The position numbers and the translations under genes were made by a program. Below are positions 25,744-61,101 of a DNA stretch of 64,000 bases, in pieces. Every line of letters begins with the position of its first letter. The first letter of the stretch is position 1. Source of the stretch: Amphibalanus amphitrite (taxonomy: Eukaryota; Arthropoda; Thecostraca; Balanomorpha; Balanidae); NCBI RefSeq assembly GCF_019059575.1, contig NW_024881523.1:124001-188000 (forward strand). The letters run 5' to 3'. Below the pieces are notes generated by a model. It ran no database searches, had not been told where the DNA came from, and saw nothing but the letters and a program-made list of their open reading frames with translations.

Positions 25744-25753
25744 TAAGCGCAAA

Positions 25754-25925
25754 GTGGCCGAGGCGTCGGCAGCGGACCAGGTGTGTAGTGTAGACAGAGT
25801 GGCCGAGGCGTCGGCAGCGGACCAGGTGTGTAGTGTAGACAGAGTAGCCGAGGCGTCGGCAGCGGACCAGGTGTGTAGTGTAGACAGAGTGGTCGAGGCG
25901 TCGGCGCCGGACCGGATGTATGCGT
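25754..25925 (+). repeat. 45-bp minisatellite, GCCGAGGCGTCGGC core
   Basis: Four units start at 25754, 25799, 25844 and 25889, each exactly 45 bp (15 codons), sharing the core CCGAGGCGTCGGCAGCGGAC. Because the period divides by three, frames stay open on both strands and mimic a coding repeat (EASAADQV). No other coding evidence. Confidence 0.9.
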
Positions 25926-26426
25926 ATGCCGATTTGCAGAAATACGGAGGCGGCCACTTAGAAAATACTTTGAGACCTTTTCACAAAGAGACTCCTTGAG
26001 TGCTAAACCGAGCCTCCAAGGTGACTGGCTGAGATGTGTTTCTGCGGCAGCGTATGTCCATCAGGTTGCGTTCGGAAGCGCTTCTCGAAATGCGTGGTCT
26101 GTTTTGACAAGGGGCCTTATCCCATCTAACCAACCCCGCCACGTTGCCTCGTCAACAAGTGCTGCTTTATCTCGCTATTGAAGCGGCTCCCAGGCAGGTT
26201 CGTGTCAGGTTTCGTGGCAAGATGTTATATGCGATGACAATAGCGTGTCTGAACTACGCCTGCCAGACTCCGATCGAATCGCCGGCGTGACTAAATGGTC
26301 TGCGTTCCGTGTTGTACGGTACGGCGGTGAACACCTCCACGAGTGACCAGGTCGCCGGCGATCGACTCAGGCTCTGATGTCACTAAAATGCGCTTTAGTA
26401 AGCTAAGTGCCTACCGTGTTGCAGAG

Positions 26427-27300
26427 GGCCGAGGTGACGGCGGCGCACCTGGCGCCTGTAAGTTGCAGAGTAGCCGAGGCGTCGGCGGCAGGCCTGATGC
26501 GTGTGCATGGGTTGCAGATTAGCCGAGGCGCCGGTGGCGGACCCGATGTGTGCAGGGGTTACAGTGCAGCCCAGGCGTCGGCGGCGGGCCCGATGTATGT
26601 GCATGAGTTGCAGAGTAGCTGAGGCGTCGGCGGCGGTCCTGATGTAGGTACTTACGTGCAAGGGGTGTAGCGTAGCCGAGGCGTCAGTGGCGGACCTGAT
26701 GCGTGTGCGTGAGTTGCAGAGTAGCCGAAGCGTCGGCGGCGGACCTGATGTATGTGCCGTTGCAGAGTAACCGAGGCGTCGGCGGCGGACCTGATGCATG
26801 TGTGTGAGTTGCAGAGTAGCCGAGGCGTCGGCGGCGGACCTCATGTACGTGCGAACATGGGTGGAGAATTGTTTTCAAAGTTGGTATGGCGCCAGTTGCT
26901 CGAAACAATACTATCGTGTTTTATTCTTATCAAACTGAAATCCTTAAATTTCGTAGCTGTTACCCTGAAAAGTTGGTATGGCATTGCCATACCATCTTTT
27001 AAGTTGGTGTGGCGCGTGCCATGCCTGCCATACCATATTCTCGACCCATGCCGGTGCAGATTTTACGGGGTGGCTGAGGCTATACGACGGCGGGCCTGAT
27101 GTGTGTGCATGAGTAGCAGAGGGGCCGAGGCGTCGGCGGCGGACCTGATGCATGTGCATGAGTTGCAGAGTAGCCGAGGCGTCGGCGGCGGACCTGATGT
27201 ATGTGCGTGATTTGCGGAGTGGCCGGGGCGTTGTCGGCGAACCTGATGTGTGTGCGTGGGTTGCAGAGTAGCCGAGGCGTCGGTGGCGGACCTGTTGTAT
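26427..27300 (+). repeat. Degenerate 50-56-bp minisatellite, same core, two blocks
   Basis: Further units of the GCCGAGGCGTCGGCGGCGG family with linkers like TGTGCATGAGTTGCAGAGTA, at about 26427-26855 and 27063-27300. Between them, 26870-27055 holds a short unrelated segment with repeated AAGTTGGTATGG motifs and a small palindrome GGTATGGCATTGCCATACC. Confidence 0.85.
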
Positions 27301-27309
27301 GTGCAGTGC

Positions 27310-28830
27310 AGTGTATTGATGTCAACTACGGAAAAACGGAATACCGATACCAAACCAAGTACCAGCCTATGGTTCATTATACCATCAAAATACCGAACAC
27401 ATTAGGAATCAAATACCAAGTACCGAGTTGGTATCAGTATGGTATCGGTATACCGAAAAGTTGTATCCGAGGACATCTCTACTGCAGAGTAGCCGAGGCG
27501 TCGGCGGCGGACCTGATGCGTGTGCGTGCCGAGGCGTCGGCGGCGGACCTGATGTATGTGCGGTGCAGAGTAGGACGTCGACTACGGAAAATCGGAATAC
27601 CGATACCAAACCAAGTACCAACCTAGGGTGCATTATACCAACAAAATACCGAACACATTAGGAATCAAATACCAAGTACCGAGTTGGTATCAGTATGGTA
27701 TCGGTATACCGAAAGTTGTATCCGAGGACATCTCTACAGCAGAGTAGCCGAGGCGTCGGCGGCGGACCTGATGCGTGTGGGTGCCGAGGCGTCGGCGGCG
27801 GACCTGATGCATGTGCGGTGCAGAGTAGGACGTCGACTACGGAAAATCGGAATACCGATACCAAACCAAGTACCAACCTAGGGTGCATTATACCAACAAA
27901 ATACCGAACACATTAGGAATCAATTAGCAAGTACCGAGTTGGTATCAGTATGGTATCGGTATACCGAAAAGTTATATCCGAGGACATCTCTACTGCAGAG
28001 TAGCCGAGGCGTCGGCGGCGGACCTGATGCCTGTGCGTGCCGAGGCGTCGGCGGCGGACCTGATGTATGTGCAGTGCCGAGTAGGACGTCGACTACGGAA
28101 AATCGGAATACCGATACCAAACCAAGTACCAACCTAGGGTGCATTATACCAACAAAATACCGAACACATTAGGAATCAAATACCAAGTACCGAGTTGGTA
28201 TCAGTATGGTATCGGTATACCGAAAGTTGTATCCGAGGACATCTCTACAGCAGCGTAGCCGAGGCGTCGGCGGCGGACCTGATGCGTGTGGGTGCCGAGG
28301 CGTCGGCGGCGGACCTGATGCGTGTGGGTGCCGAGGCGTCGGCGGCGGACCTGATGTATGTGCGGCGCAGAGTAGGACGTCGACTACGGAAAGTCGGAAT
28401 ACCGATACCAAACCAAGTACCAACCTAGGGTGCATTATACCAACAAAATACCGAACACATTAGGAATCAATTAGCAAGTACCGAGTTGGTATCAGTATGG
28501 TATCGGTATACCGAAAAGTTATATCCGAGGACATCTCTACTGCAGAGTAGCCGAGGCGTCGGCGGCGGACCTGATGCATGTGCGTGCCGAGGCGTCGGCG
28601 GCGGACCTGATGTATGTGCGTGCCGAGGCGTCGGCGGCGGACCTGATGCATGTGCATGAGATGTATGTGCGTGAGTTGCAGAGTAGCCGAGGCGTCGGCA
28701 GCGGGCCTGATGTATTTGCAGTGCGGAGTTGCCGGGGCGTCGGACGCATTGCAGTTGCAGAGTAGCCGAGGGGTCGGCGGCGGACCTGATGTGTGTGCAT
28801 GAGTTGTAGGGTGGCCGGAACCAGGTGTTT
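27310..28830 (+). repeat. Higher-order repeat: 255-bp composite units in alternating X-Y order
   Basis: Each unit joins an AT-rich part (ACTACGGAAAATCGGAATACC ... GTTGGTATCAGTATGG) to two or three copies of the 34-bp GCCGAGGCGTCGGCGGCGGAC core. CTACGG anchors lie at 27326, 27582, 27837, 28093 and 28384, giving periods of 256, 255, 256 and 291; the last unit gained one core copy. Diagnostic variants alternate: units at 27582 and 28093 share AAATACCAAG, CGAAAGTTGTA and GTGTGGGTGCC; units at 27837 and 28384 share ATTAGCAAG, CGAAAAGTTATA and GTGCGTGCC. This implies amplification of a dimer of about 511 bp. The tail to 28830 is plain minisatellite. Confidence 0.9.
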
Positions 28831-30688: not shown

Positions 30689-33600
30689 ACGTGTGCCGGC
30701 GCCGTGGGCCGGCCGGTGATGTCTCCCGCTCATCCCTCTGACAGAGCGGCTCGGTCATGACGGACGCGCCCGGTGCCGAGCCGGCCGCCTCTGCTGCCGC
30801 CTCCGCCTCGCGGCTCGATGGCAAGCCGTTCTTCTGCCGCCAGTGGGCCTTCACAAAAATCTCTCAATGTCTGCAGCACAAACAGAGCAAGTTAGGCGGT
30901 GCGCTGGTGGTGGGCGGCGTCGGCTCGGGCAAGACGGCGCTCTGCAGCGAGTTAGCGCGTCCGACGGCCGCCACCGGTCGCCAGCTGTCCCTGCATGCGC
31001 GGCTAGTGGCGCACCATTTCTGCCGCACCGAGCAGGCGGACTCGCTGCGCGCCGGCACGTTCGTGCTGCAGCTGTCAGCGCAGCTGGCGCGCAGCCGACT
31101 GCTGCCCGGTTACGCGGAGAAGCTGCGCGACCCGGACGTGAGCGCGGTGCTGACGCCGGTGTTCTGCAGCCGCCAGCCGGAGGAAGCGCTGCGCCGCGCG
31201 GTGCTGTTTCCGCTGCTGGAGCTGGACGAGCCGCCGCAGCCGCTGCTGTTCGTGGTGGACGGTGTGGATGACTCGCACCGGGCGGCGGCCGGCGGCGCGG
31301 GCAGCGTGGCCGCTCTGCTGGCCAGCCACCAGCACCTGCTGCCGCGCTGGCTGCTGCTGGTCGTCACTGCGCGACGCTCCAGTCGGGATGTCACGCGGCT
31401 GTTCGCCGGCTTCAGAAAGGTAGGCAGGCGCGACCGGCCCGGGTGACGACAGTGCATGATGGCGTTACAATGGAGAAGCCAGAGACGGTTAGCTCTTGCG
31501 GCGAAATTTCACGCAACTTGATAACAAAACTCCACGCAATTTGAATTTGCTGGCCAGTGTTTAACCTGACGATGTCCCATTGAACCATTCATTAATTATA
31601 TAATATGCTATCATTCGTTGTTGATTCGGAACACTTAATGGTAGTTGCATTGTCATCGTTCAATACCTAATTGCCTCCGTCCCCCTCCCCTCGCAGTATA
31701 TTGGTGGAATTCCTCTGGTGCTGTCATCTGAACCCCCCCCCCCCCCCGTCTGTGCCATTGGCAGATTGTGCTGGACGACCTGCGGAAGGCGAACGTGGTC
31801 ACCGACCTGCAGCAGTACATCCTCAGTCGGCTGGAGCGGGAGGCGGCGCTGCGCCAGCACCTCAGCCACGAGACCGCCGAGATGCTCAACCAGTTGCACA
31901 TCAAGAGCAACGGCTGCCTGCTGTACCTAGAGAAGGTGCTTAGTGGTGTGTCGGAGGGCTTCATCCGGCTTAGTGAGGTCCGAGAGATACCCGGCACCCT
32001 GAACGGGCTCTATCTGTGGCTCAGTCAACGGCTGTTCACCAAGAAACACTTCCACAAGGCCCTGCCGGTGTTGAATGTGTTATTGGCGGCGCTTCGGCCA
32101 CTGCCTGTCAGCACAATCTTCGAGTGTGTGCGGCTCAAGAACGCGGCGGTGACGTGTGATGACTTTGAGCGGCGGCTGTCTGTGCTGGCGCGTCTTACGG
32201 TGGATACGACCGACGGTGCGCGGCTCCTCTTCCATCACAGCTACGCCGAGTGGCTGACTGACGTCAAGTACTGCACGCAGCGCTTCCTGTGCCAGCCGGA
32301 GGCCGGCCATGGCATGCTGGCCGCCTGGCTGCTGCGGCGGGCGCCCCAGCTGGCACCGGACGAGGTGCAGCTGTTGGCTGAGCACCTGGTGCGGATGGAG
32401 TCGGGCCGGCCGCCGGCCGAGCCAGATCTCCTGCCGCTGCTGCTGCTCTGGTCCGGCGCAGAGGTGGAGACCTGTCTCCAGGACGGACAACCCGACTCGC
32501 CGGTCACACTCGAACTGCTGCAGCGGGCGGGAGCAGAGACGGTGCCCCTCACACTACCCGACAGCCGGCAGGCGAGCGTGGAACCGACAGGAGAGGATCG
32601 GCTGGCTCCACCGGCGGCTGAGGCACAGCCGGGGCTGGAGCCGGAGCCAAGCTCTGAACTGGAGCCGGCGCTCAGCTCTGAGCTAGCGCTGAGCTCTGAG
32701 CCGGACCGAGCGCCGAGCTCGGAGCTAGAACTGGAGCCGGAGCCAGAGGCGGCGCCTAGTTCGGAGCCGGAGCCGGGGCCGGAGAGTGAGCGGGACGCGG
32801 ACAGTGACGGCCGACTACTGGAGATGTACCTGGCGGAGGGCGAGCCGGCCGAGCCCGCCGCCGAGCAGGCGCTGCTGCTGTCGGCGGCGCGGCAGGGCGA
32901 CGCCGGCCTGGTGGCTCTGCTCCTCCGCCGCCGCGTGCCCGCCGACTGCGCGGACGCCGCCGGCCAGTCGCCGCTCACACTCGCCGCTAGGCACGGACAC
33001 GCGGACGTGGTGGCGGCCCTGCTCTCGGCCGGCGCGGCGCCGGACCGGCCGGACGCCGACGGCTGGACTCCGCTGCGGTCGGCCGCCTGGGCCGGTCACA
33101 CGGCCACGGTGCAGCTACTGCTCAGTGCCGGCGCTACCGTGGACAGTGTTGACGGAGAACAGAGAACAGCTCTGCGCGCGGCCGCCTGGGCCGGACACGA
33201 CGATATCGTATCAGCTCTTCTCTCGGCTGGCGCAGATGTGAACGGCACTGATCGCGAGGGACGTACGGCGCTGATCGCCGCCGCATACATGGGTCATGTG
33301 GAGATCGTTCGCCGTCTGCTAGACGCCGGGGCGGACATTGATCACGCGGATGGGGACGGGCGCACGGCGCTGGCCGTGGCCGCGCTCTGTGTGCCTGCCT
33401 GTGAGGGCGCCGGCCGGGTGGTGGCGCTGCTACTAGAAAGGAACGCCAATGTGAATCATGAGGACCGTGAGGGGATGACTCCGCTGCTGGTCGCCGCCTT
33501 TGAGGGGCACAGGTGAGAAAAGTGGTGGACAGAGGAAGGGTGGGGCTAGGAGTGGTCTTGAGTTTCCGGGAACTGCGGTTGGCAACTGTGAAATCCCAGG

Positions 33601-35828
33601 ACTGGGATAGCTAAAACGTTTGTGATTTCTCCTATGTGGTTATTGTCACAGAAGCCAGCTCAGCTCCATGACAGTTACGTCCCGTTTCAGTGGTTTCTAA
33701 AGCTGTCAATGACATGCACCTGTCGCTTCAGCGATGTGTGGCCCTCCATCTGCTCCCTAATGCGGCCTCAGACCCTCCCACCTGTCCCCCAGACTGCGTG
33801 CTATCCTTATTCCTCTCACAGGGACGTGTGTAGCCGTTCTCCGTCCTTTCTGGTTGTATAACTCCCTCGCCCACTCGTAGGGACGTATATGAGCTACTGT
33901 TAGAGGCGGACGCGAACCACTCTGACAGAATCTGACCTTTTTCTCTCCCTCTTTCCTTCAGGGACGTCTGTGAGCTGCTGTTAGAGGCGGACGCAGACGT
34001 GGACCAGTCGGACGGAATCTGACCCTCCCCCTCCCTCTCTCCTCTCAGGGACGTATGTGAACTGCTTCTGGAGGCGGACGCGGACGTGGATCACTCGGAC
34101 GGCGCCGGCCGGTGCGCGCTCTTCGCCGCCGCCTCGATGGGCCACCACACAGTGGTCCAGCTGCTGCTGTTTTGGGGCTGCTACTGCGACACAATCGACC
34201 CAGAGGGACGCACAGTGCTCAGTGTGGCCGCCGCCCAGGGCTGTATTCAGACTGTCCGCCTGCTGCTTGACCGAGGCCTGGACGAGGGCCACCGCGATAA
34301 CGGCGGGTGGACACCGCTTCACTACGCCGCCTACGAGGGACACGCAGATGTGATTGACGCTCTTCTAGACGCCGGCGCACGAGTCAATGAGGTGGATAAT
34401 GACGGAAAGCACGCGCTGATCCTGGCGGCCCAGGAGGGTCACGTATCGGCAGTGGCGGCGTTGGTGGAGCGCGGTGCCGATGTCAATCTGCGCTCACATG
34501 ATGGCAAGACCCCGCTGAGAATGGCAGCGCTGGAGAGGCATAAGGACGTGGTGCATTACCTGGTGTGTAACGGCGCAGACGCCAGCTACCGTGACATGGA
34601 CGGCCGGAGTACGCTCTACCTGCTGGCTCTGGATAACCGGACCGCGATGGCAGCGTTCCTCCTGGACAGCGGAGCGGATGTCGAGAGCTGTGACCTGGAG
34701 GGACGCACCGCGCTGCACGTCAGTGCCTGGCAGGGGCATACGGAGACTGTGCGTCTATTACTGCAGCGCGGGGCAGACCCAGACGCCATTGACGCCGAGC
34801 GTCGCACGCCTCTGATCGGCGCCGCCTGGCAGGGCCGCCCGGCGGTGGTGCGCGCGCTCCTGGCGCATGGCGCTACTGTGGACCACACCTGCAGTCAAGG
34901 AGCCACCGCGCTCTGCATCGCCGCTCAGGAGGGACACCTCGAGTGTGTGCGCGTGCTGCTGGACCATTTTGCTGACCCGAATCACTCTGACATGCACGGT
35001 CGGAGCGCGCTCAAAGTGGCGCTCAAGGGCCGCCACGAGGCGGTGGTGCGTCTACTGGAGGAGTATGGGGCCAGCAGCGCCGCACCGCCGCCTCAGCCGC
35101 CGCCACTGCCGGTCCATCAGCCGCCCTGCCACGCGAGCGCCAGTAACGCGTCCATGAACTCTGTCTCGACCGCCGAGACGAAGCCGAGCAGTGCGGCGCT
35201 GGGTGGCGCCTCCCCGGTTGATTCTCCCTCCTCGACCTTTGAAAAGCGCCAGTCGTGCGCCTCATTCGGCAATCACTCGCACTCCAAGTCTAGCAGTAAT
35301 CTGACCGACTCGACCGGCAAATCGTCGCAGACGTCTCAACCGGCCGCTGACGCTTCACCCACTCCGGCGGCAGTCTCTGGCGGGCTGTCCTTCACCCAGC
35401 AGCTGCAGCGGTGTCGGCGGCGCGGCGGCCGGCCCGTGGAGACCACCACCGTCGCCGAGTCGCCGCCGTGCAGCCCAGCGGAGCGGCGCTCCACGCCCGT
35501 CAGTCCGCAGGCGCACCTGCCGCTCATCTACGCTGACCCGCACGACTCGCGCGCGCCATCTGCCGCCGTTCGACCACGCACCTCGGCACCATTCACCTTC
35601 GACCAGAACGAGCACATGCGTATCATTCTGGGTACCAAAAGCGGCAGCAGCTCTGTATCGTCAGAGTCGCGGCCGCGCCGCGGGCTGGCCGCCCAGGCCA
35701 ACTCCGGTCTCAAGGCGGGTGCGGCGGCGCTGCGCGCGCGAGCGGCTCCCTCCAAACAGAGGACGTCTGCGCTGGCTTCGGATGGCTCCTCGAATGGGTT
35801 CCACCTGCGCCGAGAGACGCCACTATAG
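30689..35828 (+). CDS. ANKRD50: ANKRD50 orthologue: P-loop NTPase plus ankyrin repeats (3 coding exons)
   Basis: In vertebrates ANKRD50 works with SNX27-retromer and WASH in recycling membrane proteins from endosomes (family knowledge). Coding exons are 30757-31419, 31765-33512 and 34049-35828; GT-AG junctions are in phase and give 1396 aa against about 1430 in human. Residues 20-43 hold the FFCRQWAFTKISQCLQ segment, 53-60 the Walker A GGVGSGKT, 164-171 a Walker-B-like FVVDGVDD; TAEMLNQLHIKS, IPGTLNGLYLWL and DVKYCTQRFLC follow. Residues about 513-568 are a Glu/Ser/Pro repeat linker not in the human protein. About 17 ankyrin repeats span 588-1146 (e.g. GRTALIAAAYMGH, GATALCIAAQEGH). The tail is Ser/Pro-rich and ends in the family's conserved ETPL. 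The start ATG fits the family N-terminus; an acceptor at 30687-30688 (CCCCCAG) shows a spliced 5' UTR begins at 30689. A GTGAGT donor nine bases after the stop suggests a 3' UTR intron to about 36627. Confidence 0.93.
33822..34022 (+). repeat. Tandem decoy copies of ANKRD50 exon-3 start inside intron 2
   Basis: The start of the last coding exon (acceptor AG then GGACGTATGTGAACTGC, at 34049) is repeated upstream at 33822 (short), 33881 and 33962. The latter two keep an AG acceptor, the reading phase and an ankyrin-like frame (RDVYELLLEADANHSDRI, RDVCELLLEADADVDQSDGI), each ending in an in-frame TGA at 33933-33935 and 34020-34022. Periods are 81 and 87 bp. Use of either acceptor would truncate the protein about halfway through the ankyrin domain. 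Confidence 0.8.
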
Positions 35829-42731: not shown

Positions 42732-42996
42732 CAGGGCTGCGGAGTCGGAGTCGGAGTCGGTCGGAGTCGACAGTTGTGACCGGAGTCGGAGTCGATTTTA
42801 GAAACCCGAGCCGGAGTCGGAGTCGGAGTCACCGAAAATCTGTCGACTCCGCAGCCCTGCTAGGTCTGCGGAGTCGGAGCCGGGAGTTGGAGTCGATCGG
42901 AGTCGACAATTCTGCCCGGAGTCGGAGCTGGTTTTTGAAAGCCGGAGTCGGAGTCGGAGTCGGAGTCGCCGAAAATCCATCGACTCCGCAGCCCTG
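42732..42996. repeat. Two tandem copies of a CAGGGCTGCGGAGTCGG palindromic repeat
   Basis: Copy 1 (42732-42859) starts CAGGGCTGCGGAGTCGG and ends CGACTCCGCAGCCCTG. Copy 2 (about 42860-42996) starts CTAGGTCTGCGGAGTCGG and ends the same way. Both are filled with GGAGTC hexamers. A related, left-truncated piece lies at about 60330-60385. The ends look hAT-like, but the target duplication is not clean (GGACA is near both outer ends). Confidence 0.7.
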
Positions 42997-50238: not shown

Positions 50239-53200
50239 TTACAGCTTATCTAGAAGGTTACACTGTCGAAGATACAAGAACAGAGCATCAAGTACTTCAC
50301 AATCATTTCCGAGCAAGTTCTCCACTGTAGGGCGGATGCCTCTGGTCCTACAGGCTGAGATCAGACGCAGTCTCTCCACACGATATTGTCGACAATCAAG
50401 GAGAATGTGTCCCACGTCTTGTTGGCAACGACACACCTCACACACAGGCGCTGGATCATGGTCAATGATGTGTGAGTGAGTAAGTACAGTATGCCCTATC
50501 CTGAGCCGGCAAAGTACAACCTCTTCCTTGCGGTTTTCACGTACACATGATGACCAGAAACCAATGTTCGGTTTGATGACCTTCAACTGGGTGTTGCGGT
50601 AATCTTGCCACAGCCTCGAAAAGAGTTCCCTTACGCGGTCTTTCACCATAGGTATGTATTCCCGCGGTCCTACCGTGACCCTTGTCACGTTTGGTTTATC
50701 ATGTGCCTTTTTGGCCCAGTAATCGGCCTTCACATTGCCACCAATACCGCTGTGACCTGGTATCCAGACTAGGGTACATTCTAAGCCAGCACATACATTG
50801 GTGTGGTTTAGTTCTAGAATAGCTTCCAGAATCGGATGATCGTCATTTTTATTTTTCAAGGCCCTGATAGCGGACAAAGAGTCCGTACAAATAAGGGCTT
50901 TTGGAATGCTTTTTGCGCGAACATACCCGATCGCTTCTCTTATAGCCACCAATTCCGCAGTAAATATGGACAAACCGTCCTGGAGCTTAAACGAGAAAAA
51001 GGCATTATTTATCGTGAAAGCACAGGTAGCGGAATCTCCTATTTTGGACCCATCAGTAAATAGGATGCGATAACCCGGGTGGTCCTCCACCAGGTCGTTG
51101 AAGGCCATCTGGATGTCAGTCAAAGTCATTTGTCGCTTGTCTTGGGTCAAAAGCATGTGCGTTTTGACCGGATGTCTTGTCCATGGGGCTGTCGACTTCG
51201 TGGGTTTAGTCACCGGAGGGGGTCTGAAACGCAATTCATTCAGCACTTTCCTAACTCTATAAAGTATTGGGAATCCTGATATTCTGTGCATATAACTTTC
51301 CGACAAGCCATGGTATGGGTCAGTAATGTCTTGCAGGTTCATTAGGTCGTAGCAGGGGTGCTTCTGGTCACCCTGTACTTTCAGGAAATACCTGACCAGA
51401 AGTTCTTTCCTTCTGACAGAAAGTGGGTGCACGTTCGTATCCACCTGCAAGGCTCGTACTGGAGACGTTCGGATGGCCCCTGATGCGATTCTCAAACATG
51501 CATTTTGTATGGTTTCTAATGACTCTATTCTTTTGTTTCCAGGTCCGTCAATAACACATGATGCATACTCCAATATAGGTCGTATAATAGCCTTGTACAT
51601 GCGCAGTAGGACTATGCGGTCCGCACCGTAACTTTTTCCGGCAACACATTTCAACACGGAAATACGCTGCTGAGCTCTGCCTTTTGTATATTCCACGTGG
51701 GCATGCAAGTTCAGCTTTGAGTCCAGGATAACTCCCAAGTATTTCACCTGATCGACCAGGGAGATAGCATCGCCTCCAATGTGTAGGTCAGGAAGAACTT
51801 CCGGGTTAAGACGTTTAAGGCTACGTCGAAACAATATAGCTTTCGACTTGGTAGGTGAAAATGTGAATCCGTGTGTGGAAGCCCAGTTTCCAATCCGATC
51901 CAGTGCTTTCTGTATTTTGTGGAACAATGTTGGGATACGTCTACCCTGCGTCCAGATGGTCACGTCGTCGGCGTATACAGCATAATATATACCCTGAGGA
52001 ATGTCATCCATCAAGGAATCAATTGCCAGGTTGAAAAGTATCGGCGAGATGACCCCACCTTGCACTATGCCATGCTCCTGAGTAAATACATCAGACAAGA
52101 CACCACACCTCACCTGAAAAGTTCTGTTGCTCAGAAAGCCACGAATAAAGTGCATCATGTGGCCCCGGAAGCCGGTGCGGTGCATTTGGTGTAGGAGAAG
52201 AGTAGGTGATACCAAATTGTAAGCAGACTTAATGTCGAGGAATACCGCCAAGGTGCTCGAATGGTGAAGAAAGCCGTCTCTAACATGGGAGTCCAATCGA
52301 ACCAAATGATCTACAGTAGACCGTCCAGTACGGAATGCGCACTGATGTTTGTTCAACAGCTCATATTTTTCAATACACCAACTCAGTCGTTTTCCAACAA
52401 CCCTCTCCATTAGTTTACACAGACACGATGTCAGTTGGATCGGTCGGTACGATGTAACCAATGTAGGGTCTTTACCTGGTTTAACAATTGGCACAATGTA
52501 CGAGTGGCACCACGACTCCGGGAATGTGTCTTTCAGCCATATGTGATTGAATACCTTTAGTAGCTCGTGAAGTTGGGTAGCATCCATGTGTCTTACAAAG
52601 TCATAATGCACTTTATCTGGGCCTACAGATGAGGAACCCGAGCTCTTTATTGCCTCACTTAGCTCTTCAATAGTAATTGGTCTGTTGTAGAGGTCTCGAT
52701 TATCGCTACCAAAGTCTGGGAGCCGCGCCATCATCTCTTGCTCTTTGTCCAGAAAGAGCCTAGAATAGTTAGATTGAGAGCTGAGTTCCTCAAAGTATTT
52801 CCCAAAGGTGTTCGCCACAACGTAAGGATCGTCCACAGTAATGCCGTTGTGGAGTAGGACAGGGAAAGGTTTCGCTACTCTGTGCTTAGTTGAAAACTTA
52901 CGTATAATATCCCACAGACGATTCATAGGTGTTCTATGATTGAACTGAGATAGAAGTTCTCTCCAAGAAGCTTGTTGAGCCTCTCTGAGGATCCGTCGGG
53001 TCTGTGCTTTGATTCTGCGATATTCTACCCGCAAGAACTGAGAGTGAGGATCGCGACGCATCCTATTTTGTGCCCGTCGGCGGTTTTGTATTGCCTCCCG
53101 ACATTTATGTGACCACCAAGGGCACTGGTATTTGGTGTTAGCATTTCTCATAGGAATGAATTGTTTGGCCACATTGATAATCTCTTCAGTTAGAGCTGCA

Positions 53201-54050
53201 CAATTATTCACTCCCATGTCGTCTTTGAAACGAAAAGTGCATGCAGATCGAAAGGCCGGCCAGTCCGCTCTCCTGGTACTCCACCCAGAAAAGACGAATG
53301 GTAGGTCTGGAACAGGTACCGCAGGTCTAAACTGGATCCGTATGGGATAGTGGTCACTGGAATGCAGATCCTTGTCTGTGTCCCATACGAGCAGATGTCC
53401 TATGTCACTGGAGGCTAGAGTCAGATCGATGTGTGATTCGGTACCTGTAGACTCATCAAACCTGGTAGGTTGACCATCATTAAGTACAAGTAGGTCATAT
53501 TGATTAATAACTGTCATCCACATCATTCCTCTTTGGTCACAACACTGTGAACCCCACATCACATGCTTGCTATTCGCGTCTGTGCACAGAATGAACGGTT
53601 TAGGAAGCTGTGCAATCAGCTGTGCCAGATCAGTACATGAAAATTGTTCTGTGGGTGGCAAATACAATGAACACAATGTGATTCGTCTATTTTGGGTCCG
53701 GATAGCACAAGCGAGCGCCTGTAGTGTTGTTTGCAGTGGCAGTCGGTGATGTGGCAATCTATTCGAAACGTAGATGGATACACCTCCTCTCCTGCCCCCC
53801 TGGTCTGAGTACGCATTGAATAAAGTGTAATGAGGGAGGTTGAAAGAGTATTTGTCATTTACAATGAAATGTGTTTCCTGGAGGCAAATTGCATGATAAG
53901 AACCCTCTGTCAGCATCTGTTTGGCTTCTGCCCATTTTCCTATCAGTCCTCTACAATTCCACTGTAGGATATCCAGGGACTGGTCAGGTTGGAATTCAGG
54001 AAGCTCTCCTGAACTTTGGCAAGCTTTTTCATTAGGTTCAATGCGAGATC
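50239..54050 (-). CDS. LINE ORF2: endonuclease, reverse transcriptase, RNase H
   Basis: The polyprotein nicks target DNA, copies the element RNA and removes RNA from the hybrid. The first ATG at 53916 gives 1225 residues, but the open frame reaches back to about 54050 and that extra part encodes SLDILQWNCRGLIGKW, the start of the APE-type endonuclease; no ATG precedes it. Numbering from 53916: endonuclease residues ICLQETHF (E14), TDAN near 110, SSDHYP near 185; RT core from about 430, with YADDVTIW near 649; RNase H with FTDGSK near 954, TAELVAIREA, TDSLSA and KADYWAK; C-terminal zinc motif CEVCRCQQDVGHILLDC near 1155. All catalytic residues I can place are present. The start codon is the open question: loss of ATG, non-AUG initiation, or recoding. 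Confidence 0.92.
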
Positions 54051-54200
54051 ATTTAAACTGAGTGAGCATATGCCAAACAGTACAACAAGGAGTGTGGAAT
54101 TAATGTACGCACACAAGCCCTTCGTCATCCTGGGATGAAGAGCCGTCCTTTTCATGGGACGACAAAACTGATCCAAAACGAAAAACGAAATAAAGAACAT
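53943..54200 (-). other. Small frame in the ORF1-ORF2 gap overlapping ORF2
   Basis: An 85-residue frame with a hydrophobic N-terminal half (LLVVLFGICSL) overlaps the AUG-less start of ORF2 in a different frame. It could feed ORF2 by frameshift or reinitiation, or be chance. No known domain. Confidence 0.25.
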
Positions 54201-54365
54201 CTTCTGGAACTAAACAATGACTCTACTGAATGTCTTCTCAGACTATTAGAGTACTCTTCCAGGAAAGAAAAACAAAAATATGATCTAGTCTTACACTAGA
54301 CTTAGACTCTGCTGGACTTGAAAGAAATAAAACTACCTTCTACAAAACCGTGAGAAGTTGGGAGA

Positions 54366-55844
54366 TTAGGTGGGAGGGCGGGATGCCACCCCAGCCTGGT
54401 TTGTCACCTTTTTTCCTTTCGGTGGTTGGGTGTGCTGGAAATCCATGTGGGCTCCGTGGGGGGAGGCTAGGGGGTTCAATGGAGCAGCGCCACCAGTCTT
54501 TGTCATGCTTCCACCTCTGGTCCCAATGGGGCTTCCTCCGAGGCCATGGGGGCTCTGAGTGGGGACTTTCATCTCTGAGGGTGAGACATGTATCATGTCC
54601 TGACTTTGTTCTACTCCCTGAGAGTGGCTGTCGTGTGTTGCTGACTCCTGCTCAGCACATGCCAGGTCATACATATTCTGCTCTGAGTCAGAGAGAGTGG
54701 ACAGCTGTGTGCTTTCTGATGGGGTGCCGTGCAGGTCCATGGTGTCTCTCTCTCCATCTGTGTCTGCGCTGTGCTGACTCTGCTGTGTCTGGGTCTGTTG
54801 CAGGGTGTCCGTATCAACTCCATCTCCTGAGACCTGAACTCTCACTCCTTGCTGATAGTGTTTGGGCACCCCCAGTTGAGCTTTCTGGACACTTGTGTTC
54901 TGCTGCAGGAACTGTTCGAGTAGTGTCAGTATTTTGTCCATTTTCTCCTCCATGTGGTCCATTCGGGTTTTTGAGGAGTCATTTCGGGGAGCCTCAGCTT
55001 GAACCCTCGCGGCAGTTGCATAAAGGCGTGTGGTTGGGACCTGGTGTTCTTTTTCATAGAGTCTACGAGCATGTGGGTAGGACACGTCCCTGTCAACCTT
55101 CAACTCGCAGATCTCTTTTTCTCTTTTCCAAACGGGACACTGTCTCGAAAGGCAGTCATGGTCAGCTTGGTCGCAGTTTATGCACTTTTTGGCACATGGT
55201 CCATCATGTTTGTTTTCCCCGCATGTTAGGCACACTCCCGTCGACCGGCATCTCTCCTTTGTGTGCCCATACTTTCCACAGTTGTGGCAAATGAGAGGAT
55301 TGGGCACATGCTTTTTGACTTTGTACTCCACGTAGTCAAACTGGAGCTTTGTAGGGCAAGATGGTTTGTTGAAAGTCAGAAGAATCGTTGGTGTCTTTTC
55401 TAGATGGTTACCTGTTTTTCTCATAAATCGCTTGGCAGCTACCACCCCAAACTCTGCCAACCATCCCAGGATGTCATCGTCGGACAGGTCTAGAAGGTCA
55501 AAAGCATGGATAGTTCCTCGGCTTTGGTTCAGTTTTTGATCTCTCTGGATCTCACATTCCTCACCCCCAAAAAGCCTGGCATTGATGAGCTTTTCGGCCT
55601 GGGACTGATCCTGGGTTTTGACCAGAAGCCTTCCATCGTTCATGAAACTGGCCTTCTCCACTTTGTTCCTTCCACCCAGTATCCCCCTTACTGCCTGCTG
55701 GACCCAGGGCCAGCCTTTTTCTTTGACAGGTTTACCAGACAGAAGTTTTATGGTAAGATACACCCCAGTATCCTCACCATCGTCCCAGAAACTTTCAGAG
55801 AAGCCTTCCCCTCTCACCCTTTTGAAGGCCCGTTTTGGCCCCAT
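54366..55844 (-). CDS. LINE ORF1: Gag-like RNA-binding protein with zinc knuckles
   Basis: 492 residues. The N-terminal 170 carry a Gag-like region with an RRM-like fold suggested by the VYLTIKLLSGK and LLVKTQDQSQAEKL strands (inference). Zinc knuckles follow: CHNCGKYGHTKERC near 190, then CLTCGENKHDGPC and CINCDQADHDCLSRQC. A coiled-coil stretch MDHMEEKMDKILTLLEQFLQ lies near 300, and the C-terminal third is Gln/Ser/Thr-rich. ORF1 proteins of this type package element RNA into particles for nuclear import. The start ATG is the first of the frame and sits 230 nt from the element's 5' end. Confidence 0.9.
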   Translation of the reverse strand: MGPKRAFKRVRGEGFSESFWDDGEDTGVYLTIKLLSGKPVKEKGWPWVQQAVRGILGGRNKVEKASFMNDGRLLVKTQDQSQAEKLINARLFGGEECEIQRDQKLNQSRGTIHAFDLLDLSDDDILGWLAEFGVVAAKRFMRKTGNHLEKTPTILLTFNKPSCPTKLQFDYVEYKVKKHVPNPLICHNCGKYGHTKERCRSTGVCLTCGENKHDGPCAKKCINCDQADHDCLSRQCPVWKREKEICELKVDRDVSYPHARRLYEKEHQVPTTRLYATAARVQAEAPRNDSSKTRMDHMEEKMDKILTLLEQFLQQNTSVQKAQLGVPKHYQQGVRVQVSGDGVDTDTLQQTQTQQSQHSADTDGERDTMDLHGTPSESTQLSTLSDSEQNMYDLACAEQESATHDSHSQGVEQSQDMIHVSPSEMKVPTQSPHGLGGSPIGTRGGSMTKTGGAAPLNPLASPHGAHMDFQHTQPPKGKKVTNQAGVASRPPT

Positions 55845-56087
55845 CTTCTAGATTTGCCCTACATCAACATGCAAACCCACCTTTCGCTCTTGTAGCTACA
55901 CGTCAACCTTATTTGAACTCTGACCGCTTCCAACGAAATTACAGCTCCAAACACTCTCGGAGTACTCTTAAAACCCTTTGTAGCAACAAATATCGGTCTA
56001 CGTCTTAAATCTTAAATCTTTAAATAGTCGTGACTGAAACCCGTCCTCTCCGCCACGTGGTGCGCCGGAAACTGCATAAGAGGGATC

Positions 56088-56514
56088 AAAATCGATAATA
56101 ATCAGCTTCCCCCCAACCCCAATTTCCACTGAAGCTGATACAGAAATACATGTTTACCGGTATTCGTAACTCGTGCGCCACATTCGCTATCCTATCTATA
56201 CGGTTCTACGGTGCTGCCACCTAGCGAGGTGTCACGAGGCGAATTGCCCCGTGTTACATTTGACCCCGCTCTCCCCTATATGGAAGCCAGAATTCATGAC
56301 GTTGCTGGCGCGTATAAAACAATTGTAATGTATTCTTTAGGTGAACAAGCCGCTGTGGTTTTGCTGCCAGCGAAAGCTCATTGGTAACCATAGTTTCGGA
56401 GGAGGCCGTGATTTGCTACAATGTCCTACTAGCAATCTAAGAACATAATTATTTCTTAGTAGGACATCGAATGTGATTGGAATATGATATCTTTAAGGGG
56501 GATAATTTTTTCGG
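56088..56514. other. Right end of the nest and flank
   Basis: 56088-56276 is the remaining right portion of the TA-flanked element, ending in its terminal repeat. 56279-56514 is unassigned and includes an inverted pair (GTCCTACTAG...CTTAGTAGGAC, about 56423-56466). Confidence 0.4.
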
Positions 56515-56630
56515 ACGCGTGTATATCACACCACGGTGAGATTTACATAATGCATCGCACTGTAGTGTAAACCTCACCCGGGTGTGATTTACACAATACA
56601 CTACTCCTGTGTATATCACACCACGCGGAG

Positions 56631-56690
56631 ACCTAACCTAACCTAACCTAACCTAACCTAACCTAACCTAACCTAACCTAACCTGACCTA
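56631..56690 (-). repeat. Interstitial telomeric repeat (TTAGG)n, left arm
   Basis: Ten perfect ACCTA units then one ACCTG, that is TTAGG on the minus strand, the ancestral arthropod telomere repeat. It closes the left palindrome arm at its outer edge. Confidence 0.95.
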
Positions 56691-56735
56691 CTGATTTTTG
56701 CCTACCCGTGGATGAGGAAGAAGGTACTCGCATGA

Positions 56736-56870
56736 AGAGATTGCAAGCAATGGTAAGTCAAATATTTTTAGGTTAAGTGGTTGTGCATCAGGCTTCAGGC
56801 CTTCGGCCTGAAGCCAGATACACAACCACTTAACCTAAAAATATTTGACTTACCATTGCCTGTAATCTCT
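56736..56870. repeat. Hairpin with 66-bp stem, left arm
   Basis: Stem 56736-56801 pairs with 56805-56870 with four mismatches around a TTC loop; the loop end is the symmetric CTTCAGGCC/GGCCTGAAG. Both strands contain AGGTTAAGTGGTTGTG and AATGGTAAGTCAAATA, so TTAGG-like sequence is also built into the stem. Confidence 0.9.
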
Positions 56871-57005
56871 CCTAAGGCATTGCCTTCGGCACTGCACCGC
56901 TTCGCCACGAGCATTCAGACGTCGCTTTCCATATTGTATTGGTGCTTTTAAACTTGTCGGTCGGCAGCGAACCCACCGCTACCAAGGAAAAGCGAAAATG
57001 CGGGA

Positions 57006-57086
57006 AAAAGCGCCCGCACCGACGGGACTAGAACCCGCAACATTCGGATCATGGTGCAAGCACCTTCACCACTAGGCCAGCCGGTC
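57006..57086 (-). ncRNA. tRNA-like Pol III unit, left arm
   Basis: Mirror copy of 59277-59357: B box 57025-57035, A box 57069-57079, T-run just beyond on the minus strand. It carries the one base that differs between arms (57047), within the would-be anticodon arm. Confidence 0.6.
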
Positions 57087-57154
57087 AGGTGATTCCGAGG
57101 GAGAGGACGCCCGTAATACCGCCGGAATATTCGTAGTGCTTAGTCTGATCTGAC

Positions 57155-57216
57155 CAATGGGCGAGCAGAGTCACTGCTCTGACCAATGGACGTTCAGCGT
57201 TGCTATGACGTCACAT
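57155..57216. promoter_or_regulatory. CRE plus two CCAAT boxes, left arm
   Basis: TCTGACCAATGG occurs twice, separated by the small palindrome GAGCAGAGTCACTGCTC, followed by the full CRE TGACGTCA (57206-57213). The mirror copy is at 59147-59208. The combination is a common promoter-proximal module in animals. Confidence 0.5.
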
Positions 57217-57379
57217 CGTGGTGAGATATACACACAGCTGCCCTCTCTGTGTATTCCTCACCCGGGTGTGATTTACACTACGTAGTAGATTTTGTGTATA
57301 TCACACCGGGGTGGGTGTGATTTACACAAATGGCCGGTATTGTGTAAATCTCACCGTGGTGTGATATACACGGTCCCAA

Positions 57380-58983
57380 ATATTATCATTTCAAGAATGG
57401 GAGAGGCTAAGAATCAAAGTAACTTACATTCTGCCTAAAAGAGACAACGATCTTCAAAGTACCTGAGGTAAATAAAAACACTTAAGCCAGTTTAACGTAA
57501 TTTAAATCGGCTTATTGCGTTGCGATATTCAAATATCAAATCAAATTAAAGATAGGATGGTAATTTTCTCAGCACTAAAAACCGGTCATTTTGTGGTATT
57601 TTCGGCAAAACTAGGCATTTCCAGTTAATTTGAGGTATAACAGGGTCATTTAGCACCTAACCAGTTATAACACCTATTTAAGGGACTTTAGCACTACTTT
57701 CAGTCTAATTCGCAGTATTTTTAGTTTGAATGGCACCTAATGGTAGTCATTTCGCACTATTTTTGGTAGATGTTTAGGCATCCCTACTAAATCTAGAAGG
57801 ATTTAAGTATATTATGGAGAAACAAACTACAATACTAGTCTGTACTAGCTACAGATTGTTTGTTGCCAGGTCGATTAGCGTCCTTCGGCGCATGCGTTTT
57901 GAGAGGACCGATAGGACGCAGGGCGCGCTTCTTGGACGGATTTGGCAAGGAATTTGGACAGATTGATTTGCGTACAGCCTCAGCGTGTGCCGATCATCCT
58001 GCCTTTTCTTGTCCAAGAGTGAACTGAGCGAGGTTCTTAGCATGGAGATTGGAGAGTGATGACGATTTCCGCGAGGATGTTGGGTCCTACCGTCCGCCCA
58101 AGCGTACTGGTCCGCCAGTGCTGCTGTCTTTATTCTGTCAGGTTATCTAACGGCGCTATGGGCATGTAGGTACAGCATTGCAGCAGCAAATGCTTAATCT
58201 AAATGTGCGGTGGCATTTTCCCATGCTTAGTAGGAAGCGCTCGACGTCCCTTCCGTACGTGTCGTGGAAGGGACGTGTCTGTCATTGACGCACATCAACT
58301 AGATGGATCTTGATTGTAGCATTTCGCAGCAGCGTTTCATCGTTCAGCGGCCTAACGCCTAGCCAGCTCTCATTTCGAGGGAGTGGTACTTTGCTGACTG
58401 CTGAGGAGCATGAGTGGTCACGCTGCATCGTGAGCCAGATGAAGCCGGTGGGCAGACCGCGTGTACCGTACATTTGCGTACATGATTTTGTCCCACGAAC
58501 CTTAGCGATGCGCATTTTTGTCCACAAATTTACCTAATATATACCCAGCATGCCTATTAGTCGTTAGGGGGCAGCACCGGGCGTGGTGTATTGCGTAGAG
58601 GGCAGGACCTATGCAACAAAACTTGCTCCAATTCCGTTTTCATCGTGGAAGTAATACGCTGAATGGAGGATCATACTTTGATGTCCAACTTACGTACAAC
58701 ATAAAAAATAAATACCTCAAGGCTCAAGAATACTGTGATCATAGCAGCAGCGATCGTGCTCGGCAGTGAAATCATGAATAGTGCTCATATACCGGATTTA
58801 GTGCAAAATGAGCTACCACACACCCATTTATTATGCCAGATCTGGCATCGCCTCTGTACTAGCTAAAATAGTGCGGAATGACCGGATATACCTGTGTTTG
58901 ACAGGAATTGCCTGCGAAAAGACGATAGTGCAAACTGAACTTATGATAGTGCAAAATAACTGAAATTTATGGTACTGAAAAAA
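57380..58983. other. Spacer of the giant palindrome
   Basis: AT-rich 1604 bp. Repeated phrases such as TAGTGCAAAAT / AGCACTA and TTAGGCA occur on both sides. The longest frames are under 85 codons without recognisable motifs. A small palindrome TGCCAGATCTGGCA lies at 58834-58847. Confidence 0.5.
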
Positions 58984-59276
58984 TTGGGACCGTGTATATC
59001 ACACCACGGTGAGATTTACACAATACCGGCCATTTGTGTAAATCACACCCACCCCGGTGTGATATACACAAAATCTACTACGTAGTGTAAATCACACCCG
59101 GGTGAGGAATACACAGAGAGGGCAGCTGTGTGTATATCTCACCACGATGTGACGTCATAGCAACGCTGAACGTCCATTGGTCAGAGCAGTGACTCTGCTC
59201 GCCCATTGGTCAGATCAGACTAAGCACTACGAATATTCCGGCGGTATTACGGGCGTCCTCTCCCTCGGAATCACCT

Positions 59277-59357
59277 GACCGGCTGGCCTAGTGGTGAAGG
59301 TGCTTGCACCATGATGCGAATGTTGCGGGTTCTAGTCCCGTCGGTGCGGGCGCTTTT
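59277..59357 (+). ncRNA. tRNA-like Pol III unit, right arm
   Basis: A box TGGCCTAGTGG (59284-59294) and B box GGTTCTAGTCC (59328-59338) are 44 bases apart, matching type-2 Pol III promoters; a T-arm-like CGGG-TTCTAGT-CCCG forms, and a T5 terminator stands at about 59353-59357. The acceptor stem pairs only over ACCG/CGGT and the anticodon arm is irregular, so this is a tRNA-derived RNA (SINE-like) rather than a working tRNA. Confidence 0.6.
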
Positions 59358-59492
59358 TCCCGCATTTTCGCTTTTCCTTGGTAGCGGTGGGTTCGCTGCC
59401 GACCGACAAGTTTAAAAGCACCAATACAATATGGAAAGCGACGTCTGAATGCTCGTGGCGAAGCGGTGCAGTGCCGAAGGCAATGCCTTAGG

Positions 59493-59627
59493 AGAGATTA
59501 CAGGCAATGGTAAGTCAAATATTTTTAGGTTAAGTGGTTGTGTATCTGGCTTCAGGCCGAAGGCCTGAAGCCTGATGCACAACCACTTAACCTAAAAATA
59601 TTTGACTTACCATTGCTTGCAATCTCT
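59493..59627. repeat. Hairpin with 66-bp stem, right arm
   Basis: Inverted copy of 56736-56870, with the same four stem mismatches. Confidence 0.9.
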
Positions 59628-59675
59628 TCATGCGAGTACCTTCTTCCTCATCCACGGGTAGGCAAAAATCAGTAG

Positions 59676-59750
59676 GTCAGGTTAGGTTAGGTTAGGTTAG
59701 GTTAGGTTAGGTTAGGTCAGGTCAGGTCAGGTCAGGTCAGGTCAGGTCTA
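59676..59750 (+). repeat. Interstitial telomeric repeat, TTAGG changing to TCAGG
   Basis: After one GTCAG, seven GTTAG units are followed by six GTCAG units. The arm identity with the left side ends at this switch. The block-wise change of one base in six successive units suggests local amplification of a variant. Confidence 0.95.
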
Positions 59751-59780
59751 AGGTTTGGTTAAGTGTCTTGTTACCGTGCC

Positions 59781-60125
59781 TACTGTGTAAATCTCACCCA
59801 GGTGCTGCGTGGTTTGACACCCAGGTGTGATTTACCCACTACCGAGCACACAGTGTATATCACACCCTGGTGAGATTTACACATTGGCTAGGCCTACTGT
59901 GTAAATCACACCCAGGTGCTGCGTGGTTTGACACCCAGGTGTGATTTACACACTAGGAGCACATTGTGTATATCACACCACGGTGTGATTTACGCATTTG
60001 CCGGGCCTACTGTGTAAATCACACCCAGGTGCTGCGTGGTCTGACACCCGGGTGTGATTTACACACTAGGAGCACATTGTGTATATCACACCCCGGTGTG
60101 ATTTACGCATTGCCGGCCCACTGTG
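59781..60125 (+). repeat. Three 113-bp tandem units made of hairpin motifs
   Basis: Units start (TACTGTGTAAAT) at 59781, 59895 and 60008. Each contains GTGTAAATCACACC paired with GGTGTGATTTACAC around a spacer with GTGCTGCGTGG, then a GTGTATATCACACC...GGTGTGATTTACGC pair, that is two potential hairpins. The same motifs edge the palindrome arms and the left flank (56517-56625). Confidence 0.85.
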
Positions 60126-60329
60126 TAAAGCGAAAGAAGCAGAAGACAGTAGATTCTTCAGAACTGCTTTTTAATTTTGTATGTTATTTTTAACGCATGA
60201 TTGCAATGCAAAGTCACGCACAAGGGGTCGTTTCAGGAAAGATAAAACATCTACAATATGAGCTTCAATATCATGATATGGATTTTAATAGGTCCGTCCG
60301 GATTCGCAGTCTGGGTCAGAGTCAATATG

Positions 60330-60385
60330 TGAAGCGGGAGTCCGAGTCGGAGTCACCCGAAAATCCATCGACTCTGCAGCCCTGT
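60330..60385 (-). repeat. Truncated GGAGTC-type repeat
   Basis: Carries GAGTCGGAGTCACCCGAAAA and ends ATCGACTCTGCAGCCCTG, the same terminus as the tandem copies at 42732-42996. Its other end is missing. Confidence 0.65.
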
Positions 60386-60433
60386 ACCTACCTGACCATA
60401 AAGAGATGCTGCTTCACATTGCTTTGTGGGATC

Positions 60434-60684
60434 AGAGGGCTGTTCACGGGCCCTGTGTGCGGTCGGACCGCACACAGCCTCCAAGCTCCGCCCACTGCGT
60501 CCCTACGTCAGCCTTCCGTCACCGCACACAGCGATCGCTGTGGCCGGTCGGGACTGGCCACAGCGGACCGTCCACCGCACGCAGCCGTGACGTCAGAACC
60601 GCCTACCCATCCCCTACCCCCACGCCTGCTGGACGCACCGCACACAGCGCACGCAGCAGTGTGCGGTGCCCGTGAACACCCCTC
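60434..60684. mobile_element. GC-rich MITE with GTTCACGGGC termini
   Basis: Inverted ends AGAGGGCTGTTCACGGGC and TGAGGGGTGTTCACGGGC (right end reverse-complemented) enclose about 215 bp rich in CCGCACACAGC motifs in both orientations. No clear target duplication. Confidence 0.6.
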
Positions 60685-61101
60685 AGGTTATATTCTCTGA
60701 TAAGTGATGACACCAGACACATTCATTGTGCATTAGAATCATGTATAGAAACAAACAACAAACAGGATTGGTGATTGGTGGATCACATGATAGAAGTTAT
60801 TTCTGAGTTATGGTAGTAAGTGCTTGTTTCAAATTATGAAGGTCATGAATGATGATCCTGCTAAGGCCAAACTGAGTGATTATATTTCACTTAATGCTCA
60901 ATGCGGTTGTTTGCTTATTCTGGGCATGAAGTTCTGATCAAAGTGGCATGGTTGCAACGTGCATCATGAGGAAGACTGAACAGGATGAGTTGATCCTGTC
61001 AATAGTCATTCATTATGGTGCATCCAATTCCATGAGAATGCTCGTTTTCAAAGTCACCTGATGGAAGCTGTGGCATGTGGATGCCACTCATCAGTTAGCA
61101 G

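Follow-up and report, generated by a model that had tools for sequence, protein, structure and literature searches.

Introduction

Plant Pack-MULEs are non-autonomous derivatives of Mutator-like elements (MULEs), whose ends surround captured DNA, namely gene exons. Transposon ends can also carry sequence related to short interspersed elements (SINEs): MER6, according to the passages that deal with it in PMC6887750, is a mariner miniature inverted-repeat transposable element (MITE) with a V-SINE domain. tRNA genes, in turn, undergo transcription-associated mutagenesis in their flanks, as stated in a passage of PMC8113476 citing Thornlow et al. 2018.

Here we analyse a palindromic locus in a 64,000-nucleotide stretch of the Amphibalanus amphitrite genome (“the window”; contig NW_024881523.1, positions 124,001 to 188,000). 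We consider it likely that its two arms (elements A and B) are inverted copies of a young non-autonomous MULE, which carries a captured RNA polymerase III (Pol III)-type unit with a transcription-linked substitution hotspot, and that an inversion later rearranged the locus. In tRNA genes, selection purges transcription-associated mutations from the gene body, where they are consequently difficult to observe. Approximately 80 near-identical copies with cold internal controls on both sides would render the footprint, the borders and the spectrum of a single Pol III unit measurable. If the reading is true, cut-and-paste transposition can disseminate a Pol III unit. Under a bolder reading, with slightly less than an even chance, in which the unit remains germ-line active after each jump, the element would be a DNA-transposon counterpart of SINEs and of the TRIMp3 retrotransposons, and its copies would be natural reporters of Pol III mutagenesis, base by base. 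A limited literature search found no description of a Pol III unit spread on a DNA transposon; MER6 comes close.

The inverted arms and their element family

An inverted-repeat scan detected arms of 755 nt (56630-57384 and 58979-59733), which are 99% complementary and enclose 1594 nt. BLAST aligned 56630-57379 with 59733-58984 (750 bp at 99.5%), and the 687-bp cores inside the arrays differ at one position. The near-perfect symmetry reported in an initial annotation is borne out, and so are several components that it placed in each arm: a hairpin with 66-nt arms (RNA fold -112.9 kcal/mol, z -21, the stem being longer in the fold), two CCAAT boxes and a cyclic AMP response element (CRE; TGACGTCA at 57206 and 59150). 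Its spacer devoid of a transposition gene is consistent with a longest internal open reading frame of 81 aa. Other parts of that description have to be revised. The inner stop of the arms is not arbitrary but the transposon terminus, reading GGTCCC/GGGACC (57377 and 58986); the TTAGG arrays, taken as arm ends, are internal and flanked on the outer side by palindromic TGTGTAWATCWCACC repeats; and the spacer is not unique, as most of it (57555-58985) belongs to another repeat family.

A search of the genome (807.5 Mb, 2644 contigs) with the arm yielded 1517 candidate places, of which 40 were scored; all 40 matched over the full length at 98-100%. The 38 copies fetched outside the window pair were chosen by similarity to the window, and the sample is hence biased towards window-like copies. 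A single element spans GGACGCG to GGTCCC and measures 1292 bp in the reference copy (L018). Perfect 9-bp target-site duplications (TSDs) of varied, A+T-rich sequence bracket 30 of the 32 complete fetched copies, with L019 and L041 as exceptions, and are also present at L049 and L050; loci with one end missing or distant (L016, L029, L030, L032, L040 and L046) were left out of this count. As a control, the left flank of one copy matched the right flank of another in none of 992 cross-copy comparisons. The length of 9 bp falls within the 8-11 bp range of MULEs (Mutator).

Exact matches to the 5' and 3' tips number 70 and 85 genome-wide, compared to zero for a reversed-pattern control. Paired by position, they form 62 pairs, 45 of which span 1100-1350 bp, and leave 8 5' tips and 23 3' tips unpaired. 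Three internal 60-mers, termed tRNA-like, mid and CCAAT, occur with up to three mismatches at 79, 79 and 77 places, respectively, including the window pair, a stand-alone unit on contig C427 (mid), an element on C2011 (CCAAT) and an element on C1 with two mid copies. From the tip and 60-mer counts, the family comprises about 80 copies. The repeat is a single-armed non-autonomous DNA transposon of approximately 1.29 kb, and the mobile-element option raised in the initial annotation holds: there are many copies with fixed ends and 9-bp target duplications. The terminal inverted repeats (TIRs) are imperfect, about 35 bp long and supplemented by subterminal half-sites. In total, 12 forward and 13 reverse half-sites of the type TGTGTAWATCWCACC (up to 3 mismatches) are arranged as inverted pairs over both ends, an arrangement that would suit binding by a transposase.

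Some family loci are unusual in structure. At C349:84275-85556 two copies with the same variants lie head to tail without any bases in between, as the 3' tip of one reaches 84294 and the 5' tip of the other begins at 84295. C208:220762-221008 holds a 3' tip and the CCAAT stretch, but neither the tRNA-like nor the mid 60-mer close by, and is likely another MULE derivative. The copy at L046 (oriented 2007-2500) contains an inserted sequence with inverted ends GGGTTTGTTCCCGTCGCTCCTC.

A probable autonomous partner

A genome search for the MULE transposase domain PF10551 gave 111 matches from the 150 of 204 candidates that were scored. One of these (31.2 bits; cut-off 27.6), in a 643-aa open frame at C2011:41781, sits between exact family tips 15.8 kb apart (C2011:34294-50080), and the element so delimited has a perfect 9-bp TSD (TTTACGTCT) on either side. 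Three stretches of it, about 8.9 of the 15.8 kb, were read. The 5' end is 94% identical to the short element over positions 1-484, and the 3' end 99% over 1011-1292, with a partly duplicated inner array. Two frames of 426 and 643 aa match the ZSWIM1/3 RNaseH-like domain PF21056 (9e-19) and PF10551 (1.8e-5 and 1.2e-6), together with a weak SWIM match. The second frame reaches 29.3 bits for PF10551, above the cut-off; a match to IS256 is weak and far under its own cut-off, and Pfam detected no PHD finger at E <= 0.1 in the two frames, which possibly represent a partial protein. Among the 8000 best candidates scored, the second frame has one homologue at 84% (P0123), followed by the next at 29%; a sequence search of solved structures returned no useful match. 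Taken together, the 15.8-kb MULE is the probable autonomous partner of the short elements. Its frames read inward from the 3' side of the element, where the CCAAT boxes and the CRE are located, and because they do so, these motifs probably constitute the transposase promoter.

Three other long tip pairs were rejected as autonomous partners on frame length. The longest frame is 149 aa at C508 (approximately 10 of 10.9 kb read), and C186 and C140 contain extra sequence, but their longest frames are 142 and 130 aa, respectively. None of the 111 listed PF10551 matches falls in C508, C186, C140, C532, C607, C155, C678, C819 or C711. The tip pairs C508:83465-94374 and C532:72105-82940 are of near-equal length (10.9 and 10.8 kb), and the portion of C508 that was read comprises additional repeat-like sequence with no open frame above 149 aa.

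A putatively captured unit

The internal segment at about 485-1011 (approximately 526 bp) consists of a tRNA-like head, a mid part, the hairpin and the (TTAGG)n array. Positions 485-1010 have no match in the roughly 8.9 kb read of the C2011 element, and neither the tRNA-like nor the mid 60-mer occurs anywhere in C2011:34294-50080 at up to three mismatches. A stand-alone copy (L054, C427:343420-343990) is 92% identical to element positions 574-1008 and has unrelated flanks. It stops at the head, at position 1008, no more than about 4 bp from the MULE junction, carries merely a short, degenerate TTAGG array, and shows no TSD clear by eye. As in Pack-MULEs, foreign sequence is enclosed by MULE ends and has a related copy outside.

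A second stand-alone unit, at L037, is 5'-truncated and ends in a TTAGG tail. A search with the head gave 84 candidates, 40 of which were scored; nearly all were known family places, and no larger outside family emerged. Likewise, approximately 300 kb of sequence from the window and the loci, beyond 600 bp from the elements, contained no stand-alone unit. The many retroposed, TSD-bearing copies that characterize a SINE are missing from these searches, as only the C427 and L037 units stand alone.

Most copies compared share the putative A and B boxes GGTTCGAGTCC, the window copies having an altered B box (GGTTCTAG). The B box is followed by a run of five T residues, and a normal Pol III transcript would therefore be expected to end before the hairpin; read-through from the tRNA-like head into the hairpin was rejected on these grounds. 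Between the C427 unit and the family, 15 of 85 sites differ in the head, 12 of 178 in the body and 1 of 138 in the hairpin. The hairpin is accordingly conserved relative to its surroundings (p 0.008) and may represent a separate functional RNA.

A substitution hotspot over the tRNA-like unit

Among the 38 fetched copies, the 687-bp core carries 69 distinct substitutions, 39 of which cluster in columns 318-430 (113 bp). On the assumption of independent substitutions, the density is 6.6-fold higher than in the remainder (p 4.5e-14), and singletons alone yield a 5.3-fold excess (25 of 49; p 2.6e-8). The hotspot extends from the T-run terminator to about 30 bp upstream of the tRNA-like head, affects 37 of 38 copies with at least one change, and is not explained by CpG sites. 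It passes the capture boundary: MULE-derived DNA harbours 8 substitutions in the 24 bp inside the hotspot versus 14 in 257 bp outside, and the captured unit 31 in 89 bp versus 16 in 317 bp. The A and B boxes, with 3 and 2 substitutions, show less variation than the sequences between them and upstream, although the counts are small and the B-box window was one base off.

The 60-mer searches, which cover the whole genome, give the same picture. The tRNA-like 60-mer is exact at 20 of 79 places and accumulates 101 mismatches, compared to 70 of 79 places and 12 mismatches for the mid control, and 66 of 77 places and 11 mismatches for the CCAAT control. The tRNA-like stretch thus bears roughly eight times more changes than the neighbouring stretch of the same element. 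Since copies above three mismatches escape the count, the test is biased against the effect. Unfetched copies alone retain the exact tRNA-like 60-mer at 9 of 36 places, as opposed to 32 of 36 (mid) and 26 of 34 (CCAAT).

The best reading of the hotspot is mutagenesis associated with presumed Pol III transcription, because its borders are set by position relative to the promoter rather than by sequence origin. In this scenario, a MULE would have lost its interior and captured the segment in a Pack-MULE-like manner; the MULE transposase would bind the half-site arrays and cut and paste the short elements; and Pol III would transcribe the captured unit in the germ line from many copies, thereby opening its DNA to mutation. 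More tentatively, and with somewhat less than an even chance, the unit stays germ-line active after each jump, such that every insertion would found a new transcribed and hypermutating tRNA-like gene beside a strong, conserved hairpin.

History of the locus

The spacer transposon, termed X, is about 1.44 kb long, has TIR-like ends (GGATGGTAATTTTCTCAG and GGGGGATAATTTTTTCAG) and 9-bp TSDs, and produces dozens of matches, the best of which, besides itself, are 92-98% identical (40 of 54 candidate places scored). At L047, X runs through GAAAAAATTATCCCCC without a break, and AACTTTATC borders it at either end. In the window, element A interrupts X after GAAAAAATT. The lost end of X, its second TSD and the second TSD of A are found inverted at 56488-56512, followed by the tip of A, which now abuts the TTAGG array of B; element A resumes on the far side of X and runs down to position 124 (Table 1). 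As the displaced tip comprises positions 1-118, one break lies within A, at 118-124. Element A would have inserted into X near element B, and an inversion with one break within A would then have moved the A tip, one TSD and the X end to the other side. The sequence arrangement thus presents the palindrome as an accident of two insertions plus an inversion. The breakage event envisaged initially is partly borne out: the inversion disrupted one copy of the pair but was not the source of the second arm.

Alternative explanations

Several observations weigh against the interpretation as a whole. The tRNA-like stretch lies where the initial annotation placed a Pol III unit, but scores only 19.9 and 18.2 bits in the two arms against the Rfam tRNA model, under the gathering score of 29, and ARAGORN called no tRNA in the window, in 42 loci or in L054. 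The hotspot borders were drawn post hoc on copies picked by similarity to the window. As for the autonomous partner, the first C2011 frame (25.5 bits) falls just under the PF10551 cut-off, the hairpin and TTAGG array could still lie in the remaining 6.9 kb or so of the C2011 element, and a second PF10551 match, in an 80-aa frame, lies inside the tip pair C29:241317-250979; the latter scores like about 30 other genome matches and is taken as part of an unrelated inserted repeat. Finally, the arms share three variants unseen in 32 copies. One of them occurs in L029, among six further copies, which leaves two that are private to both arms (0 of 38 other copies), as expected from a local hop or from conversion; the arms may thus be homogenised rather than independent. 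The inversion, too, could stem from recombination between the inverted copies, an alternative that presupposes two independent defects lying almost at one site.

For the hotspot itself, two rivals were considered. It is unlikely that the variability reflects exchange with other tRNA-like sequences, through gene conversion or template switching, rather than transcription. The C427 unit does show its greatest divergence over the same region (15 of 85 sites), and 14 of the 39 hotspot variants are common to at least two copies. Yet the other 25 are singletons, and the hotspot reaches beyond the captured unit to cover about 24 bp of MULE-derived DNA. Moreover, at up to three mismatches the tRNA-like 60-mer has no more places than the mid control (79 each), and therefore no outside pool of closely related donors is seen. 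Slightly less credit is due to the idea that selection or single-source descent keeps the rest of the element constant and the tRNA-like unit simply displays the neutral rate. This would fit the unusual conservation of the hairpin relative to C427 (1 of 138 versus 12 of 178 sites), but mid and post-array stretches without an obvious job are equally cold among copies, and the family appears too young for selection on single copies to be a likely cause.

Two readings of the palindrome proposed in the initial annotation find no support. That the whole of 56513-60129, arms and spacer, moves as one foldback unit is extremely improbable in spite of 99.5% identity between the arms. A second full arm is missing from all 38 other fetched loci (a partial inverted unit lies near L037), most of the spacer is a different transposon with its own TSD, and the TSDs of element A are split and in inverted order. 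A telomere-associated role, in which the arrays would mediate end-joining or insertion into telomeres in the manner of telomere-integrating viruses, is highly improbable. TTAGG is the arthropod telomere repeat, and the arrays of 32 copies range from 9 to 26 units; however, the array sits mid-element, the TSDs consist of 9 bp of varied A+T-rich sequence, all 38 fetched copies lie inside contigs of the 2644-contig assembly, and the C427 unit has but a short, degenerate array. The inspected flanks of the fetched copies contain no TTAGG runs in this assembly. An endogenous virus with nimavirus-type integration into telomeric repeats was likewise rejected, as the array is internal and the partner a MULE; two pattern scans for viral contigs gave 0 matches each.

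Features of the window

Table 1. Coordinates of the palindromic locus, given as window positions
Feature	Position	Strand	Remark
9-bp target duplication of transposon X, TTAAAGATA, inverted here	56488..56496	-	
Final 7 bp of transposon X, apparently moved by inversion	56497..56503	-	uninterrupted X in L047 reads GAAAAAATTATCCCCC
One 9-bp TSD copy of element A, AATTTTTTC	56504..56512	-	
5' tip of element A with palindromic half-site repeats (element positions 1-118)	56513..56630	+	
Element B arm, TTAGG array to terminus GGTCCC	56631..57377	+	
(ACCTA)n array, 12 units	56631..56690	+	
Hairpin, 66-nt arms, stem extended in fold	56736..56870	.	
tRNA-like unit, mutation hotspot of the family	57017..57085	-	
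Two CCAAT boxes and CRE, MULE-derived	57154..57213	.	
Inner array of palindromic half-sites TGTGTAWATCWCACC and 3' TIR	57215..57377	+	
Element B flank AAATATTAT; partner duplication not found within 56000-60700	57378..57386	+	
9-bp TSD of transposon X, TTAAAGATA	57546..57554	+	
Transposon X, other repeat family, host of the element A insertion	57555..58985	+	
Second TSD copy of element A, GAAAAAATT	58977..58985	+	
Element A, positions 1292 to 124; outer tip absent here, sits at 56513-56630	58986..60129	-	
tRNA-like unit of element A	59278..59346	+	19.9 bits
Hairpin of element A	59493..59627	.	
(TAGGT)n array of element A	59673..59761	+	
Outer palindromic-repeat array of element A	59774..60129	-	

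Elsewhere in the window, an intact-looking retrotransposon lacking long terminal repeats (non-LTR) occupies 50239-55844 (- strand). It comprises a 1225-aa frame for endonuclease, reverse transcriptase and RNase H and a second frame of 492 aa with CCHC-type knuckles recognized by eye; its relatives reach 80% identity in ENA contigs, and 32% in Stegodyphus (120 of 214 proteins listed). Exons of a TANC-like gene, coding for AAA/NACHT, TANC winged helix and ankyrin repeats, are located at 30757-35828 (+ strand). Nested minisatellite blocks with the base unit GCCGAGGCGTCGGCGGCGGACCTGATG are found at 25753-28680, and a common repeat of the CGGAGTCGGAGT type at 42733-42996 and 60333-60384.

Comparison with known systems

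Parts of PMC6446971 and PMC13359780 describe MULE/Mutator transposons with non-autonomous derivatives, which the family resembles by virtue of its 9-bp TSD, its TIRs and the MULE transposase domain in a tip-matched 15.8-kb copy. It differs from these by dense palindromic half-site arrays at both ends, as well as by the captured Pol III-type unit, the hairpin and the TTAGG array. Rehavkus, as far as it is covered in the relevant section of PMC6446971, shares the 9-bp TSD, arthropod hosts and repeats close to one end; in contrast, the two (maybe partial) C2011 frames show MULE/ZSWIM-type matches instead of a Pfam PHD finger.

With the Pack-MULEs of plants, the element shares non-autonomous MULE ends that enclose captured DNA, yet its cargo resembles a small RNA gene rather than exons, and its host is an animal. 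In MER6, DNA-transposon ends likewise carry and amplify SINE-type sequence, which, in the portion of PMC6887750 concerned, comprises a SINE body and tail without a tRNA head, whereas the present element retains a tRNA-like head with putative A and B boxes. The TRIMp3 elements Cassandra, Helenus and Ajax are also non-autonomous and carry a Pol III promoter derived from a small RNA gene, but excerpts of PMC10886601 present them as LTR retrotransposons, unlike the DNA transposon described here. The raised mutation beside Pol III units finally parallels the transcription-associated mutagenesis of tRNA genes (Thornlow et al. 2018, as quoted in PMC8113476). There, the gene bodies are kept by selection, while in the present family the body varies, and the A and B boxes somewhat less so.

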